A stretch of DNA of 23,527 nt from a virus, in the IMG/VR virus record IMGVR_UViG_3300025889_000966, positions 1 to 23,527 of that record. One strand, given 5' to 3'. The position numbers and the translations under genes were made by a program. Of this stretch, positions 5,549 through 16,873 are shown piece by piece; position 1 is the first letter of the stretch; each line of letters begins with the position of its first letter. The notes beneath the pieces were generated by a model. The model had not been told where the DNA came from and made no database searches. It saw only the letters and a program-made list of their open reading frames with translations.

Positions 5549-6154
5549 ATGGTTGTTCTCGTAAACCGTGCCAAAATGGGCACCGCGACGACCGGAACCG
5601 GGACGATCACTCTCGGTTCCGCTGAAACCGGCTATCAGACATTTGCTGACGCGGGCGTGACTGATGGTCAGGTGGTGCGCTATGTGATCGAGGATGGCAG
5701 CGATTGGGAGATCGGCACGGGCACCTACACAGCGTCTGGCACTACCCTGTCGCGCACTGTCAGCGAGAGCAGCAATGCCGACGCTGCGCTGAACCTAAGC
5801 GGCTCTGCGGTGGTGTATGTCTCGGCTACTGATGCTGACTTTCGAGAGGAAACAGTCGGTGACATCGCATCTAGCACGCTCGACCTGTCTTCGGGCAACG
5901 TGTTCTCGGATGCACCCTCTGCCAACGTGACGTATGTGTTCAGCAACCCGCCCGCCTCTGGCACTGCCTACGGCTTCACGCTCAAGGTGACGCCCTCTGC
6001 GACCGTGACTGTGACTTGGCCTGCCTCGGTTGACTGGGCTGGTGGCACGGCTCCTGACGCCCCTGCCAGCGGCGAGACGGATGTGTATGCGTTCTACACG
6101 CAGGATGGCGGCACCACCTACTACGGCTTCCAAGCTGGGGATGCGATGGCATGA
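5549..6154 (+). CDS. Phage tail fibre-associated structural protein (unknown function)
   Basis: A 201-residue acidic protein with GGAG before its ATG. The N-terminal block ([24 protein letters not shown], then a [22 protein letters not shown] segment) is a recurrent module in phage fibre and neck-fibre proteins, with the sequence [17 protein letters not shown] close behind. A second beta domain with [19 protein letters not shown] and [18 protein letters not shown] follows; it resembles a C-terminal module found on many marine phage fibres. The stop overlaps the ATG of the repeat protein (ATGA), implying coupled expression. I infer that it is an adaptor or base for the next protein, but this is unproven. 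Confidence 0.6.
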
Positions 6155-7752
6155 GCATTGCGAGGCTGATGCAGATGGGTGCGGCTGGAAAAACCCGTGA
6201 AGGGTGGGACATCTCCACTGCTACGTTTAATGGCGCAAACTATAATGCGTTCAATTTTTCAAACCAAGACGCAACACCGGGGGGTGTTTTTTTTAAGCCA
6301 GACGGAACGAAACTTTACATGGTTGGCCAGTCAAATGATAGTGTTTATGAATACAATCTTGGCACAGCTTGGCAAATAAACACTGCATCATACGTTCAGT
6401 CTTTTTCTGTTACTTCTGTAGAAACAGCGCCGACTGCTGTATTCTTTAAGTCGGATGGAACAAAGATGTATGTGTTGGGCTATGCCGGAGATACTGTCCG
6501 TGAATACGATCTTGGCACGGCGTGGGACATTTCCACTGCATCACTTAACCAGTCGCTTAGTGTTGGCGCTCGTGATGCTGCTCCAAGGGGTTTGTTCTTC
6601 AAGCCAGATGGAACAAAGATGTATGTTCTTGGTGATGTCGGCAACAACGTCTACCAATATGATCTAAGCACTGCTTGGGATATTTCCACTGCGTCATACA
6701 TTCAAGCCTTTAGCGTTACGGCAGAAGAAGCTACTCCGTTTAGTCTGTTTTTCAAGTCAGACGGCACAACAATGTATGTCCTTGGTCAGTCTGGAGACGA
6801 CGTAAACGAATACAGCCTATCAACTGCGTGGGATGTAAGCACAGCGGCGTATGTGCGAAACTTTAGTGTGGGTTTTCAAGACAATTTTCCGTCTGGTCTT
6901 TTCTTCAAGGACGATGGCACTGTTATGTATGTTGTTGGGTATGAGGCTGACAACATTTATCAATATAGCCTAAGCACCGCTTGGAATGTAAGCACGGCAT
7001 CGTGGTCGCCTCCAACAACAGAATACTTTTCTGTATCTGCTCAAGAAACATCTCCGTTAAGCCTCTTTATTAAACCTGATGGGACAAAGTTTTACATCCT
7101 TGGGACTGTTGGCGATGACGTAAACGAATATGATCTAAGCACTGCTTGGGACATTACCACAGCGTCCTATGTTCAAAACTTTAGTGTCAACAGCCAAGAC
7201 ACATCGCCAGCCAGTCTTTTCTTCAAAGAAGACGGAACATCTATGTTTGTGGTTGGTTACACTAATGATAACGTCTATCAATACAGCCTAAGCACTGCTT
7301 GGGATATATCTACAGCTTCTTATGTTCAAAGCTACAGTGTAGCTACTCAAGAATTAACGCCACAAGGTTTGTTCTTTAAGCCTGATGGATTAAAAATGTA
7401 TATCGTTGGGACTGCCGGCGATGAAGTTAATGAATATAGCCTATCTACAGCGTGGGACATTTCCACCGCATCCTATGTTCAAACCTTTTCTGTTGCTTCT
7501 GAAGACTCAAATCCAGTTGGACTATTCTTCAAACCGGATGGAACCAAGATGTATATCTCAGGTGTAACAAATGATAAAGTTTATGAATACGCCCTAAGCA
7601 CTGCTTGGGATATTTCTACTGCATCCTTATCTCAATCAAAACCAGTTTATGCTCAGTGCCGAGCGCCACAATCGGTGTTTTTCAAGCCTGACGGACTTAA
7701 AATGTATATCATTGATTCTATTAGTGACGCCATATGGGCCTACGACCTCTAA
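6151..7752 (+). CDS. Tenfold-repeat beta-propeller-like protein, candidate receptor-binding adhesin
   Basis: A 533-residue protein made almost entirely of ten units of about 50 residues, each of the form [13 protein letters not shown]---(D/E)[21 protein letters not shown]. The [10 protein letters not shown] strand resembles YVTN/NHL-type beta-propeller strands. The units alternate between two types, GDDVNEY in even units and ND/DNVYQY in odd ones, so the ancestor was probably a two-unit module. No signal peptide, membrane segment or catalytic motif is visible. The base composition is much more AT-rich than its neighbours (mid-40s % GC by eye), suggesting recent acquisition or a diversifying receptor gene. 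It follows fibre genes and precedes an assembly chaperone, the usual place of an adhesin. Receptor binding is inferred. Confidence 0.65.
6205..7750 (+). repeat. Ten tandem ~150-bp coding repeats (5 x ~300 bp superperiod)
   Basis: Each unit starts near a WDISTA-like segment and ends near EY-L. Counting the FFKPDG-like strand gives ten copies. The alternation of VNEY and VYQY endings between successive copies shows a higher-order period of two units. Copies are diverged at DNA level but retain stretches such as ctaagcactgcttgggat. Confidence 0.85.
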
Positions 7753-9780: not shown

Positions 9781-10248
9781 GTGGACCCCGTAAGCATCAT
9801 TGCCGCCGCGACGACCGCCTACAACGCGCTCAAGAAGGGCATTGAGATCGGTCGCGAGATCCAAGACATGGGCGGCCAGCTTGCGACATGGGCCGGCGCT
9901 GTTTCTGACATCGACTTCCTTGAACGCAAGAACGAAGACCCGCCGTGGTATAAGGCTTTCAGCCAGTCGGTTCAGCAGGAAGCCATCGCGATCTTCACCG
10001 CGAAAAAGCAACTCGAACAGCAGCGCAACGAACTCCGCACCTACATCCAGTTCTCGATGGGTCAGTCGGCGTGGGACGAACTCCTGCGGATCGAGGCGAA
10101 GGTCAGGAAGCAGCGCGCCGACCATGAGCATCGGAAGGCCGAGATCAAGGAGGCCATCGTCTCGGCTCTGCTGATCCTTGTGATGGTCACGAGCGTGACA
10201 GGATTTCTGACCATCGTGGCATGGCTGTGGATGGAGAATAACAGATGA
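9781..10248 (+). CDS. Conserved phage membrane protein of the lysis region
   Basis: A 155-residue protein starting at GTG. The N-terminus (MDPVSIIAAATTAYNALKKG, then IEIGREIQDMGGQL) and the basic helical middle (KKQLEQQRNELRTYIQFSMGQ, a KVRKQRADHEHRKAEI segment) match a protein I know from marine alphaproteobacterial phages and pelagiphage-like genomes, where it precedes the lysis genes. A single C-terminal membrane helix (VSALLILVMVTSVTGFLTIVAWLW) ends the protein. The 4-base overlap with the EF-hand gene (ATGA) implies joint translation. The function is not known to me; topology would allow a regulator of holin or endolysin timing or a virion-internal protein. Confidence 0.6.
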   Translation: MDPVSIIAAATTAYNALKKGIEIGREIQDMGGQLATWAGAVSDIDFLERKNEDPPWYKAFSQSVQQEAIAIFTAKKQLEQQRNELRTYIQFSMGQSAWDELLRIEAKVRKQRADHEHRKAEIKEAIVSALLILVMVTSVTGFLTIVAWLWMENNR

Positions 10249-10583
10249 CACCGAAGCGGCTTGAGCCTGACAGCATCCTCGACGTGGCCGACCTCGACGG
10301 CGACGGCGTGCTGACGAATGGCGAGATCAATAAGCACGAGCGGCTCACGCGGATCGAGAACTGGGACAAGCAGCAAGACCAGCAGCGTCATATGGCATGG
10401 GTGGCGATGGTCAGCATGGTGGGGCTGACGGCGGCGCTCATTCTTCCGATCCTGTCGACGGAACGCATCGAGGCCCTGAGTGGGCTGATGACGATGTTCT
10501 ACACCGCGCAGATGGGCGTCGTCGCCGCTTTCATGGGCGCGTCGGCCTATGTCCGCACGCGGGAGCGGGATGATGAAGGGTAA
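10245..10583 (+). CDS. EF-hand membrane protein, holin candidate
   Basis: A 112-residue protein with a complete EF-hand calcium loop at residues 16-27 (D16, D18, D20, G21, L23, E27) followed by a charged helix and two hydrophobic helices (about residues 50-69, MAWVAMVSMVGLTAALILPI, and 80-100, LMTMFYTAQMGVVAAFMGA). GGAG lies upstream, and the start overlaps the previous stop. Its place between membrane proteins and the spanin/endolysin genes fits a holin. A calcium-binding loop on a holin-like protein is unusual, though I recall similar proteins in marine phages. Calcium binding is predicted from the perfect loop; the holin role is inferred. Confidence 0.65.
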   Translation: MTPKRLEPDSILDVADLDGDGVLTNGEINKHERLTRIENWDKQQDQQRHMAWVAMVSMVGLTAALILPILSTERIEALSGLMTMFYTAQMGVVAAFMGASAYVRTRERDDEG

Positions 10584-10908
10584 GGCGCTCGCATTGGCCG
10601 TCGTGCTGACGGGCTGCGGCGCTTTGCCGCTGGGTATGCTCGGCGGCGGCGGGCCGAATGTCGCGGCCAACGTGCAGGCGGGCAAGGAGAACACTCAGCA
10701 ACTGGTCGCAAATCAGGAGCGGACCGAGGCCGGCCGTGACATCATCACGGAGACGAAGCAGGTCGAGGCGGCGGCGGTCGAAAGCGTGACGATCAATAAC
10801 GTTCAGGATATACCCATTTGGGTATGGATCGCGCTTGTCGTCGGCTGGGTGTTGCCATCGCCCGGCGAGATGGCCCGAGGTTTCATCGGGCTTTTCAGGA
10901 GAAGGTAA
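10570..10908 (+). CDS. Lipoprotein with C-terminal membrane helix, u-spanin candidate
   Basis: I start at ATG 10570 (112 residues; ATG 10573 is equally possible), with GGGAG upstream; the earlier ATG at 10549 lies within the previous gene. Residues 1-16 are a lipoprotein signal with lipobox LTGC (Cys16). A Gly/Ala-rich linker (LGGGGPNVAANVQAGKEN), a helical middle and a C-terminal membrane helix (about residues 82-96, PIWVWIALVVGWVLP) follow, ending in a basic tail. A lipid-anchored N-terminus plus an inner-membrane C-terminus is the architecture of unimolecular spanins (phage T1 gp11), which fuse inner and outer membranes at lysis. It overlaps the EF-hand gene and is followed directly by the endolysin, as expected for a lysis operon. 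Confidence 0.65.
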   Translation: MMKGKALALAVVLTGCGALPLGMLGGGGPNVAANVQAGKENTQQLVANQERTEAGRDIITETKQVEAAAVESVTINNVQDIPIWVWIALVVGWVLPSPGEMARGFIGLFRRR

Positions 10909-11364
10909 ATGGGTTTCTCGCTATCGAAGAAGTCGCTCGCCAAGCTGGAGGGCGTGGACAAGGATCTGGTCGCCATCGTGCGCTACGCCATCACGGCGAC
11001 GAAGATCGACTTCGCGGTCATCTGCGGCCTGCGGACCATTGAGGAGCAGCGCAAGCTGGTCGCCAGCGGTGCGAGCCAGACGATGAACAGCAAGCACATC
11101 GGCGGCAACGCGGTCGACCTGATGGCCTACATCGGCGGCCGGGCGTCGTGGGAGTTGAACATCTACGACGAGATCGCCGACGCGATGAAGGAAGGCGCGC
11201 AGCAAGTCGGCGTTGGTGTTCGCTGGGGTGCAGCCTGGCACATCGACGACATCCGCCATTGGAAAGGCAGCATGGAAGACGCGATGAACCAGTATGTCGA
11301 CGAGCGGCGAAAGCATGGCAAGCGGCCCTTCATCGACGCGCCGCATTTTGAGTTGGCTCAGTAA
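10909..11364 (+). CDS. M15-type L-alanyl-D-glutamate peptidase endolysin
   Basis: A 151-residue protein with AGGAGAAGG before the ATG, starting at the base after the spanin stop. It carries the peptidase M15 (phage T5 endolysin/VanY-like) metal-site motifs: SKHIGGNAVD (H63, D70) and, near the C-terminus, PHFE (H146, E148). R42/T43 in GLRTIEEQ and the GVRWGAAW turn are also typical. It would cleave the peptide part of peptidoglycan in the periplasm. I see no signal peptide, so release would depend on the holin. The insert (residues 110-140) is longer than in the shortest members. It overlaps the convergent nuclease gene by 7 bases. Confidence 0.85.
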   Translation: MGFSLSKKSLAKLEGVDKDLVAIVRYAITATKIDFAVICGLRTIEEQRKLVASGASQTMNSKHIGGNAVDLMAYIGGRASWELNIYDEIADAMKEGAQQVGVGVRWGAAWHIDDIRHWKGSMEDAMNQYVDERRKHGKRPFIDAPHFELAQ

Positions 11365-13818: not shown

Positions 13819-13856
13819 CACCAGCCCCTCAGTTCGCCTAGTTGAGCCTCGGTCAT
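13818..13856 (-). pseudogene. 12-codon mini-ORF, truncated copy of a neighbouring gene start
   Basis: It reads MTEAQLGELRGW. The first nine residues are identical to the start of the winged-helix-like gene at 13612 (MTEAQLGEL), with near-identical codons. It has its own good ribosome site (GAGGAGATCGAA before the ATG), overlaps the transporter stop (ATGA) and the next gene's ATG (TGATG). It looks like the remnant of a duplication followed by deletion, possibly kept as a coupling leader. Confidence 0.6.
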
Positions 13857-14365
13857 TTCGATCTCCTCATCCAATAGATGACAGCCGCGCCGAGGAGGCT
13901 GAACCATACTTTGCCAACGATCTGGCCCGCGATGAAATCAAGAGAGCCGAAAGCCAAGAACAAGAAGACGGCGCTGTCTATCACCGCGCCAACAGCCCCA
14001 GACAACGCTACGGCCAACGCGAGCCGGCGGCGCGCAAGAGGGGCATACACCGCGAAGTCCGCGAGTTCTGAAAGAAGGAATGCAGCCACGCTGGCGATCA
14101 CGATGGCCGGCGGCGAGATGCCGGCAGATATGATAGCGCCGACAGCGATGGCAGCGAGTGCATACCGCGCGCCCAGTGTCTGATGAACGGCATCACGAAG
14201 GACCAGCGCGGCTCCGACCATTAGGACGCCAGATGGCGCCATGAGACCAAAGCCGACCGGGATCAAACATGGCCCATCTGGGACACAAGTCCCTACGTTG
14301 GCGATCATCCAGTTGGCGGCTGGTATCGTCGCGATGTATCCGGCTAGTGCAGCATATCGTTTCAC
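13853..14365 (-). CDS. VUT-family membrane protein, queuosine-precursor transporter-like
   Basis: I start at GTG 14365, which has GGGAG upstream and overlaps the preceding stop (GTGA), giving 170 residues; ATG 14401 would add 12 residues but lacks a ribosome site. Five or six hydrophobic helices and the segments APSGVLMVGAALVLRDAVHQ, AFLLSELADFAVYAPLARRR and IDSAVFLFLAFG match the VUT (DUF165, YhhQ/QPTR) family, which imports queuosine precursors such as preQ0 and preQ1 in the inner membrane. The landmarks RD-x-hQ, SE-aDf-vY and D-x-F-L are present. Its partner, coupled by overlap, is a TGT/DpdA-like protein, so it probably supplies the 7-deazaguanine base. The transporter family is confident; the exact substrate is inferred. 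Confidence 0.8.
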   Translation of the reverse strand: MKRYAALAGYIATIPAANWMIANVGTCVPDGPCLIPVGFGLMAPSGVLMVGAALVLRDAVHQTLGARYALAAIAVGAIISAGISPPAIVIASVAAFLLSELADFAVYAPLARRRLALAVALSGAVGAVIDSAVFLFLAFGSLDFIAGQIVGKVWFSLLGAAVIYWMRRSK

Positions 14366-15042
14366 AGCAGCATCTCCCTTTGCTGAGGTCTCATTTTCCA
14401 TCGTATCGGGTTCTGAATGGCATCTATTCTTCGAGCCATTCTTTCTGGGCAGAGGTCGTCATCCTTGTAATTGCGCGCGACGTTCACGCTGTCGGCGCTG
14501 GCGAAGGGCCATCTGTCGCCGCATAGCGCAAGTCCGCGCAGCATATGCACCCAAGGCAACTCACCGCGAGAAGCGAGCGCGTTGAATGCTTCATCAACCC
14601 GACGCTCCCATATCTCAGAGCCTACTTGCCAATATGCCTTAGAACTCCCGAAGCATATTTTAGCGAAGCCCATGCCGCATAGATCAAGAAGATGCTCGAT
14701 GGGTTCGTGCAGGTGCCAAACAACGGCGGCCAAGCCTCTGGTGTGAGGCCATTCGGATATCAGTCGCAGATTGTCATCAACTTCGCCATTTATGACATCC
14801 GGCACAACCGCCCAGTGTGGATGTCCCAAGCGTGGCTCGACCCAAGCATAGAACTTCGACCAATCCCCAGCGTCCTTGGCGTCACGCAGGCTGAAAGCAC
14901 CATTATCCCACATCACCGATTGACCATGAGCAAGACACCAGTCGCCATCTTCTGGTCTGGCGAAGCTGACGCAAAAGCATTTGCCGGCCATCTTTAGCAG
15001 TTCAGATCGCGGCGTCAGTGGCGTGCCATGATAGTGCAGCAT
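14362..15042 (-). CDS. TGT/DpdA-like protein, candidate DNA deazaguanine transglycosylase
   Basis: ATG 15042 is chosen over an ATG 36 bases earlier because it overlaps the upstream stop (TGATG) and has a GGGGG site; the protein has 226 residues. It belongs to a phage family I know with blocks YHGTPLTP, QSVMWDNGAF (D46), WAVVPDV (D82), VVWHLHEP, CFGSSKAYW, WVHMLRGL and FASADSVNVARN. The repeated beta-strand/Asp blocks and the order DNGAF, PDV, GSS, H-ML, SADS fit a TIM-barrel of the tRNA-guanine transglycosylase superfamily, with D46 and D82 as candidate base-recognition and nucleophile residues. DpdA enzymes of this superfamily insert 7-deazaguanines into phage DNA. Coupling to a VUT transporter supports this. 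A function as an unrelated TIM-barrel enzyme cannot be excluded. Confidence 0.55.
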   Translation of the reverse strand: MLHYHGTPLTPRSELLKMAGKCFCVSFARPEDGDWCLAHGQSVMWDNGAFSLRDAKDAGDWSKFYAWVEPRLGHPHWAVVPDVINGEVDDNLRLISEWPHTRGLAAVVWHLHEPIEHLLDLCGMGFAKICFGSSKAYWQVGSEIWERRVDEAFNALASRGELPWVHMLRGLALCGDRWPFASADSVNVARNYKDDDLCPERMARRIDAIQNPIRWKMRPQQREMLL

Positions 15043-15203
15043 CACCACCCCCACGAGATGATGACCGCCGCGAGCCACGGCACCACGGTGATGCCGAGGG
15101 CGCCGGCCGCCGCACCTGCCAACAGGCAGCGCAGGCGGGGCTTCGTCGGGTCTGCTTTCAAGTTCTCGAAGTGCTGTGCCATTCTGCCAAGATCCTCACG
15201 CAT
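15042..15203 (-). CDS. Small single-span membrane protein
   Basis: ATG 15203 has GGAGG eight bases upstream and overlaps the upstream stop by 8 bases; 53 residues. Residues 1-24 are charged (MREDLGRMAQHFENLKADP) and the rest is hydrophobic (CLLAGAAAGALGITVVPWLAAVIISWGW), probably one or two short membrane passes. The unrelated longer frame upstream is a shadow of the next gene. It lies just upstream of the deazaguanine pair; a link is not shown. Confidence 0.55.
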   Translation of the reverse strand: MREDLGRMAQHFENLKADPTKPRLRCLLAGAAAGALGITVVPWLAAVIISWGW

Positions 15204-15477: not shown

Positions 15478-15626
15478 GCTTGCTCTCCCAGCTTGCTTTT
15501 GAGGACGAGAATGTCGCGGTGCATCTGTAGTTTGTCGAGCGCCAACTCGGCCACCTTCTGCTCAAGGCGGGCGATCTCCGAACGCTGCTTGGCGACCTTG
15601 CTTTTGAGGATGTCGATCTCGGTCAT
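15474..15626 (-). CDS. Small coiled-coil protein (50 residues)
   Basis: This short gene runs from ATG 15626, overlapping the methyltransferase stop (TGATG), to TGA overlapping the next ATG (ATGA). The 50 residues are one heptad-patterned helix (ILKSKVAKQRSEIARLEQKV, ELALDKLQMHRDILVLKSKL). A 14-base direct repeat, cttgcttttgagga at 15492-15505 and 15597-15610, encodes LKSK at both ends, an in-frame duplication 35 codons apart. Function unknown; the coupling on both sides and lack of internal stops support it. Confidence 0.65.
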   Translation of the reverse strand: MTEIDILKSKVAKQRSEIARLEQKVAELALDKLQMHRDILVLKSKLGEQA

Positions 15627-16873
15627 CACATCACGCTCCTGATGAATGTCGCGGCGACTTGCGGGACGATGGCATTGCCGTAACCCCGCAGTCGTCCCAC
15701 GCGGGCGGGTAGCCCATGAGCCAGCGGGAATGTGCCGGGTTCAACTGGCCGCCACCGCTCATCGCGGCAGAAGAGCCAGTCAGCATCTCGCCAGAAGCCG
15801 TTAGTCGGGCGGGGCCATGCGGCGGCAGATGCGACTTGTCCCCAAGCTGATTGATCGTAACCGTCGTCATGCTCTCCTGTGTGCCCTTCTTGCCGTTGCT
15901 GCGGTTCTGGTAACCCCTCCTGGCCTCTTCCGCTTCTGGCGTCGGCCAGCCCGCCATCGCCGCTCGCTGCGGCAGAGGAATGCCCGTGTCCTGCGGCCTG
16001 ATCGTCCCGTTGCCGCGCGATCCGTCCTGCGCTGTCGGCGTCGGCCAGCCGGCCATCTTGCCCATCTGCGTCAGGCTGACGCCGGTCATCCCCTCCGTGA
16101 TCCCCGATCCGCTGCGCTCCCCGTCCGAGGCCGCTGGCGTCGGCCAGCCCGTCATTTTTTCCTGCATCCGGCGCGATGGCTTCCCCAACATCGCCTTCGC
16201 CATTTCTGGCAGTGGTGCCTGCGATCCCGTGTCTGTCGTCGTCGGCGTCGGCCAGCCTGTCATTGCTGCCGTCAATGCCACCGCTGGATACGGTGACGTG
16301 GCGAACTTGGCCTGCCGATACTCCAGCGATCCCCGGTCCAGATTGACATCCGCCACTTGCGGCGTCGGCCAGCCGCTCTCCGACGAACCAGAGCCGCTGT
16401 CTGATATGCGGCGCGCCGATGCCCGCAGCGCACAGATCTGCCGCCCCGATGGCGTAGCCCGTGGCTTCCATGTCAGCACATACAAGGTCGAGCCAACCGA
16501 GGCCGTCCTTGCTCGCAACTTGCTCTCCAAAGACGATTGCAGGCTGGCACTGGCTGATGAGGTGGTGCCAATGCGGCCAGAGGTGCCGCTCGTCAGCAAC
16601 CCCCGCTCTTCTGCCTGCCGCGCTGAAAGGCTGGCACGGACAGGATCCCGTCCAAACAGGGCGGTCGTCGGGCCATCCGGCGAGGCGCAAGCCGAGGCTC
16701 CAGCCGCCGATCCCTGCGAAGAAGTGGCATTGAGTGTATCCACCCAATCTATCTGGGTCCACGTCTCTGATGTCGGTCTCATCCACATCTCCATCCGCGA
16801 TCAAACCGCGCTTGATGAGTTCACGCAGCCACGCAGCCGCCTTCGGGTCTAGTTCATTGTAGTAGGCTCTCAT
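15626..16873 (-). CDS. C5-cytosine DNA methyltransferase
   Basis: A 415-residue protein, ATG 16873 overlapping the upstream stop (ATGA). The start [20 protein letters not shown] is typical of a phage/alphaproteobacterial Dcm group. Motif [12 protein letters not shown] (51-61), motif IV with catalytic Cys in SCPCQPFS (C80), motif VI as GEQV (E117; canonical ENV), motif [16 protein letters not shown], and motif [16 protein letters not shown] are present. Between about residues 167 and 335, where the target recognition domain would lie, the sequence is an odd low-complexity stretch with five LADA units. It would methylate cytosine in phage DNA against host restriction. Nearly the whole gene is also open in a second frame (WPTP ORF), which probably explains the odd middle. 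Confidence 0.88.
15631..16782 (-). CDS. Overlapping-frame WPTP-repeat protein nested in the methyltransferase gene
   Basis: I start at ATG 16782 because GGAG lies six bases upstream, which the ATG at 16794 lacks; this gives 383 residues in a different frame of the same strand as the methyltransferase. I recognise the blocks [26 protein letters not shown] then [25 protein letters not shown], and near the end [38 protein letters not shown] and [10 protein letters not shown] as a protein family often predicted in phages and metagenomes, of unknown function. Five GWPTP-A-D units occur at the DNA repeats that also give LADA in the other frame. No enzyme motif is visible. Translation is not proven, but the long frame, good ribosome site and conserved family blocks argue for it. 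Confidence 0.65.
15938..16374 (-). repeat. Five copies of GGCTGGCCGACGCC, dual-frame coding repeats
   Basis: The + strand copies of ggcgtcggccagcc are at 15938-15951, 16037-16050, 16136-16149, 16244-16257 and 16361-16374. Spacings are 99, 99, 108 and 117 bases, all multiples of three, so the phase is kept in both frames. They encode LADA in the methyltransferase frame and GWPTP in the nested frame. Confidence 0.9.

Follow-up and report, generated by a model that had tools for sequence, protein, structure and literature searches.

A transporter gene overlapping a DpdA-like enzyme gene on a virus contig: a candidate salvage-fed module for deazaguanine modification of phage DNA

The stretch of DNA analyzed here, which we call the window, is a virus contig from IMG/VR of 23.5 kb (23,527 nucleotides) that bears tail, lysis, and replication–recombination genes. 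No terminase, portal, or capsid/packaging gene was recognized in the window, and the record is probably an incomplete fragment. On its minus strand lie two genes, one for a short DpdA/TGT-like enzyme and one for a transporter of the VUT/QPTR (YhhQ, COG1738) family, and the two share the four bases GTGA, exactly as had been predicted from the letters of the sequence (Table 1). An upstream in-frame GTG at 15078 is also open to the enzyme ORF, and we prefer the ATG at 15042 because relatives of the enzyme start at the same M-L/I-H-Y-H-G-T-P; the transporter gene has an alternative in-frame ATG at 14401 that would yield a protein of 182 residues. A neighboring DNA-modification gene encodes a C5-cytosine methyltransferase, a putative member of any module that the pair may form. 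The original prediction placed this gene two genes away from the pair, but three small ORFs apparently separate it from the enzyme gene. Another frame runs open through nearly the whole of the methyltransferase gene (15631–16794, minus strand); the 387 residues that it encodes contain repeated GWPTP-type blocks and have conserved relatives of their own (PHROG 1008, E 8e-41, 194 phage records), and this frame is possibly a true overlapping gene. Elsewhere in the window (6151–7752, plus strand), a 533-residue protein consists of numerous tandem repeats ([11 protein letters not shown] / [12 protein letters not shown]) and has weak PHROG matches only; it is likely to be a virion or receptor protein resembling a beta-propeller.

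Table 1. Features of the transporter–enzyme locus (window coordinates; residues numbered in the 226-residue enzyme)
Feature	Position	Strand	Basis and remarks
DpdA/TGT-like enzyme gene, 226 aa, PHROG 887; predicted short (beta/alpha)8 barrel	14362..15042 (15042-14362)	-	sequence, PHROG, AlphaFold2, VIA
VUT/QPTR (YhhQ, COG1738) transporter gene, 170 aa, GTG start	13853..14365 (14365-13853)	-	Pfam Vut_1, PHROG 4899, TIGR00697 near miss
GTGA start/stop overlap of enzyme and transporter genes	14362..14365	-	sequence; genes in relatives likewise adjoining or overlapping
C5-cytosine methyltransferase gene (PHROG 363), 415 aa, neighbor	15626..16873	-	TIGR00675 dcm 41.4 bits, below cut-off 100.65
DNGAF, residues 46-50	14893..14907	-	D46-N47-G48 invariant; Asp ends a predicted barrel strand
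PDV, residues 81-83	14794..14802	-	P81 and D82 each retained in 95% or more of 61 relatives
GSS, residues 132-134	14641..14649	-	G132 and S133 conserved; lines up with GGST in PHROG 15826, the third family
HML(R), residues 166-169 (HML 166-168)	14539..14547	-	H166 and R169 conserved
SADS, residues 182-185	14488..14499	-	D184 invariant, ends a predicted barrel strand

The assignment of the transporter to the VUT/YhhQ family holds up. Its match to Pfam Vut_1 (PF02592) scores 45.6 bits, where the cut-off is 27.2, and its match to PHROG 4899 has an E value of 3e-36. The score against TIGR00697, 'queuosine precursor transporter', is 47.8 bits, just below the cut-off of 50.95, and for this reason we describe the protein as a Vut_1 family member and withhold the equivalog claim. 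Chromosomal relatives, which are 57–72% identical to the phage transporter, come mostly from alphaproteobacteria. What do these relatives sit next to? In 53 of 80 cases, queC adjoins the VUT gene on the same strand, with VUT downstream of queC in 52 of these, and in two loci tgt is near; the queC genes were detected by targeted search, open neighbor clustering having been swamped by spurious frames. These loci show that a VUT of this kind commonly lives in preQ0 makers, and the queC/tgt context supports, strongly, a preQ0-type cargo. For the phage transporter, we infer as the substrate preQ0, preQ1, or both, or else a compound closely derived from them. A quick VUT tree has many weak forks and long branches, and reading the origin or direction of transfer from it was given up on that account; explaining how phage and chromosomal labels are spread over this tree takes five changes, two of them forced by its starred branches.

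The enzyme matches PHROG 887, 'queuine tRNA-ribosyltransferase', with an E value of 2e-33 over 191 residues. Pfam and NCBIfam scans gave no match, including to DpdA (PF23859) and TGT (PF01702), so we name the protein DpdA-like and not a member of PF23859, and a PDB sequence search with either the enzyme or the transporter found no relevant match. From 42 aligned proteins, drawn from the window and the loci, AlphaFold2 predicts eight strands alternating with helices in a (beta/alpha)8 barrel (pLDDT 89.1, pTM 0.86). After VIA re-alignment of Foldseek candidates from the PDB, the best 50 listed rows are all of the TGT family, with archaeal arcTGT (1iq8; Z 15.3, 3.3 Å over 208 residues) at the top and with Z scores of 14.7 for Cap10 (9ntn) and about 14.5 for the TGT of Zymomonas mobilis. 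Foldseek alone put generic TIM barrels ahead of TGT, with E values no better than 5e-3, and when the enzyme family was compared with Pseudomonadota TGTs by hhalign, the probability was under 1% with shallow or broader alignments; the case for TGT kinship is therefore built on the PHROG match, the structural re-alignment, and the motifs. Among the predicted viral structures of BFVD (E up to 1e-3), most of the named matches are phage queuine tRNA-ribosyltransferases. A TGT-type barrel, the fold that had been suspected, is thus well supported as the predicted structure of the enzyme.

The five sequence blocks on which that suspicion was based were all confirmed on the DNA. D46 and D184 are invariant across the 42 aligned proteins and conserved in 61 relatives, and each ends a strand of the modeled barrel; together with D82, H166, and R169, they are near-invariant in the 61 relatives, enteric phages among them. 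From motif order and strand position, we propose that D46 and D184 correspond to the two catalytic aspartates of TGT, such that D46 of the DNGAF block would be the counterpart of the base-recognition Asp in the DSGGF motif of TGT, and D184 would be the nucleophile, at the position of FDCVLPTR. The GSS block is likewise a proposed counterpart of the GG(L) block of TGT. The enzyme ends about 42 residues past D184, and the cysteine cluster of the TGT zinc site is absent from this segment.

How tightly are the two genes tied to each other in other phages? The transporter-seeded set comprises 80 IMG/VR loci and four GenBank phages with the pair or a variant (84 in all, the window and its duplicate L001 being left out), and a TGT-like gene stands beside VUT in 83 of them. 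The partner is a PHROG 887 enzyme adjoining VUT on the same strand in 74 of the 84, a few of these with one small ORF between, and an adjoining PHROG 15826 protein in eight; in one, Sinorhizobium phage phiLM21, the partner overlaps VUT by one base and is a curated Pfam DpdA (PF23859, E 2e-43). The sole exception, L027, is a contig cut just upstream of VUT. Seeding with the enzyme instead, we found VUT on the same strand within ∼411 bp in 77 of 80 loci, with the genes in one order in 63 and in the other in 14; of the three loci without VUT, L244 stops at the gene, and 449 bp remain in L210. Both scans lean to close relatives of the window and contain many near-copies, so counts by cluster are fairer, and for the enzyme-seeded set these are 49 of 52 when clustered at 95% identity and 25 of 27 when clustered at 80%. 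Divergent PHROG 4899 VUT genes are also paired with PHROG 887 enzymes in phages of Klebsiella, Escherichia, Enterobacter, Pectobacterium, and Acinetobacter. Co-occurrence of enzyme homologues with precursor transport genes, on which the original prediction hinged, is in other words the rule in both scans: the pairing is beyond chance, reciprocal, near-obligate among close relatives, and found in two gene orders.

Among enteric and Vibrio phages, many of the PHROG 887 enzymes have no annotated VUT alongside, and none is annotated beside the enzyme in MED16, SI22, HK106, SfI, BTP1, Vibrio D105, or Epa33. From the transporter side, a rule that phage VUT always comes with TGT was rejected with Escherichia coli phage mEp021 as the counterexample: its PHROG 4899 VUT gene overlaps a C5-methyltransferase-like gene (L308, 2492–3759), and a search of the first 50 of its 54.7 kb turned up no TGT-like gene, which suggests either an unrecognized partner or another use of VUT. 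Other arrangements were seen along the way. In Pseudomonas phage Epa33, the PHROG 887 enzyme gene is followed directly by a C5-cytosine methylase gene (L276, 2501–5330), an arrangement reminiscent of the methyltransferases that lie close to the pair in the window, phiLM21, and RHph_N3_2. In Microcystis phage Mae-JY30, a PAPS-reductase-like gene (PHROG 424) overlaps the enzyme gene, and no transporter is found there (L090, 5174–6681). Several phages have, between or beside the enzyme and VUT genes, a small ORF with a match to the N-terminal part of PHROG 9572 (L085, 7741–8001; L087, 8528–8773; L089, 6723–6977).

The enzyme part of the pair is modular, in that PHROG 887, PHROG 15826, and Pfam DpdA proteins are all found paired with VUT. 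PHROG 15826 is a family whose function is unannotated. Its protein has the same block order (DNG, PDV, GGT, HxGR, DS), and profile comparison with the window enzyme family gives E values of 5e-7 to 8e-8 with the motifs aligned; its model is a barrel (pLDDT 89.3), for which the VIA list is led by pyruvate kinases and does not include TGT. We take this candidate TGT-like family to be one of probable base-exchange enzymes.

Where would the precursor come from? The original prediction took the lack of folE, queD, queE, and queC in the window as a sign that the precursor is imported. This lack proves little because the record is a fragment without recognized packaging or capsid genes, and we dropped it as evidence in favor of searches of the whole records of relatives. 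QueC was found in none of 43 whole records searched and FolE in none of 34; QueD was found in two of 43, both enzyme carriers without VUT (L003 and, weakly, Caulobacter phage DMCA), and radical-SAM matches were limited to three large enzyme-only records. L003 presents an alternative partner, with a QueD (PTPS) gene directly after an enzyme gene of the same family and no VUT (9998–11052). In four complete phages that bear the pair, Pam5, RHph_N3_2, RHph_X2_30, and phiLM21, searches for QueC, QueD, FolE, and radical-SAM proteins detected none. The salvage-fed part of the prediction is strengthened by these four genomes; the claim that import is the source was too strong. Microvirga alba, the one lysogen host that was checked for que genes, harbors the pair within what is likely a prophage (L138), and its genome (G037) has queC twice, tgt, and three VUT genes, i.e. 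the prophage copy and two others, one of which lies directly beside queC. Because this host has queC and VUT genes of its own, import need not be the sole source and may supplement host preQ0.

That many phages share the pair yet lack genes to make the analogue suggests that their DNA is decorated with a scavenged base. We favor, as a probable but by no means secure reading, that the pair constitutes a minimal 7-deazaguanine module in which import is followed by base exchange in phage DNA; the substrate, the DNA acceptor, the protection, and the catalytic roles in this scheme are those that we infer. During infection, VUT/QPTR would bring preQ0, preQ1, or both, or else a close derivative, into the cell; the phage, making no precursor itself, would rely on the environment and on any host-made supply. 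The short TGT-fold enzyme would then excise guanine from phage DNA and insert the deazaguanine, as DpdA does, with D46 serving in base recognition and D184 acting as the nucleophile during the exchange, and the modification would probably blunt host nucleases. Of the relatives whose virion DNA has been measured, the nearest is Pantoea phage MED16, which has no preQ0 genes and whose PHROG-887-type enzyme is 37.6% identical to that of the window; its DNA contains dADG at ∼0.13% of G,(PMC8306585) a very low level at which the tested restriction enzymes were not visibly impeded.(PMC8306585)

We also put forward, more as speculation than as expectation, a broader reading in which the pair is a two-gene mobile cassette that takes its enzyme from at least three TGT-like families, such that an imported micronutrient sets the identity of a DNA base as a widespread strategy. 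If so, phage modification and nuclease resistance would depend on preQ0/preQ1 from neighboring bacteria.

Other explanations of the pair deserve consideration. The one that survives best is that host-made preQ0 is the working source for DNA modification and that VUT is secondary, serving as a top-up or for recapture of leaked base, denial to others, or export. The M. alba genome fits this explanation, as do the cellular VUT relatives, which mostly sit in the queC loci of preQ0 makers, and the enzyme-bearing MED16, which still has dADG without a VUT.(PMC8306585) Nevertheless, we regard it as rather unlikely; the near-obligate linkage within the clade argues that VUT matters to the enzyme, and E. 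coli uses QPTR as an importer.(PMC5372724) Could the enzyme act on tRNA of the host or phage instead, such that the pair boosts queuosine-type modification and favors phage translation? Boosting of tRNA was earlier suggested for phages that carry preQ0 genes and lack DpdA,(PMC6884629) and both the TGT fold and the name of PHROG 887 are in keeping with it. This possibility is quite unlikely given a protein that stops so soon after D184 without cysteines for the TGT zinc site, a gene location in a phage DNA-metabolism region near the C5-methyltransferase, and the pointers to DNA from MED16 (PMC8306585) and from the pairing of VUT with Pfam DpdA in phiLM21. Lower still, at the level of a long shot, we place an enzyme that attaches or handles deazaguanine on protein, perhaps in counter-defense, like Cap10 of type IV CBASS: Cap10 is among the closest structures and protein deazaguanylation is documented,(PMC11996544) but no Cap9/QueC-like partner lies near the pair, QueC is missing from all 43 records, and an unsystematic look showed no nucleotidyltransferase partner. 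Finally, phage accessory genes do shuffle freely and mEp021 has VUT without a detected TGT-like gene, but an accident that left two unrelated accessory genes side by side is scarcely credible in the face of reciprocal linkage in 77 of 80 and 83 of 84 loci, in two orders, and across three enzyme families and divergent VUT lineages.

If the import-and-exchange module is the correct reading, what would it mean? In the survey of Hutinet et al. (PMC6884629), phages with a DpdA-like enzyme and no precursor genes made up the biggest class of presumed deazaguanine modifiers, and their modification status was hard to predict. A near-obligate VUT partner gives one clade of such phages a plausible supply route, and VUT linkage predicts which phages may need an external precursor. 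The pair would also link protection of the phage genome to a micronutrient that is exchanged between microbes. Additionally, the unannotated family PHROG 15826 is now marked as a probable base-exchange enzyme.

Several known systems resemble this locus in part. The DpdA-only phages, which form the third group of Hutinet et al. (2019) and include Salmonella phage 7-11,(PMC6884629) share with MED16 and with the window pair a TGT-like enzyme without preQ0 synthesis genes; MED16 differs from the window in that no VUT is seen beside its enzyme. Uptake was suggested for DpdA-only phages, and YhhQ correlated with no phage group in that study,(PMC6884629) whereas within the one clade described here the linkage is nearly complete. 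Transporters for preQ0/preQ1 are known from within phage que clusters, for example in Vid5,(PMC6266253) in EC151 and Seuratvirus,(PMC8310023) and in the haloviruses HCTV-1 and HCTV-16,(PMC8651126) and salvage of preQ0 by phages has already been proposed for Pantoea phage Vid5,(PMC6266253) Enterobacter phage EC151,(PMC8310023) and the DpdA-only phages.(PMC6884629) As in the window, VUT/YhhQ in Vid5, EC151/Seuratvirus, and HCTV-1/-16 is tied to a deazaguanine DNA-modification pathway; unlike the window, where VUT and the short enzyme stand alone, these viruses carry most or all of the preQ0 synthesis genes. Salvage by QPTR/YhhQ is known from bacteria,(PMC5372724) in which QPTR–TGT fusions also occur.(PMC11130926) Like the window pair, these fusions couple an importer to a TGT-fold base exchanger, but they are cellular, serve tRNA, and contain a full-length zinc-containing bTGT, unlike the short enzyme of the window. 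Cap10 shares the TGT-family fold (Z 14.7) and acts on the N terminus of a 7-amido-deazaguanine-modified protein together with the QueC-like Cap9,(PMC11996544) a partner of a kind not seen here. A limited literature search found no description of a stand-alone transporter–enzyme pair. Thus, phage preQ0 transporters themselves are already known, and what is new here is their reciprocal, near-complete linkage to a TGT-like enzyme and the modularity of the enzyme part.
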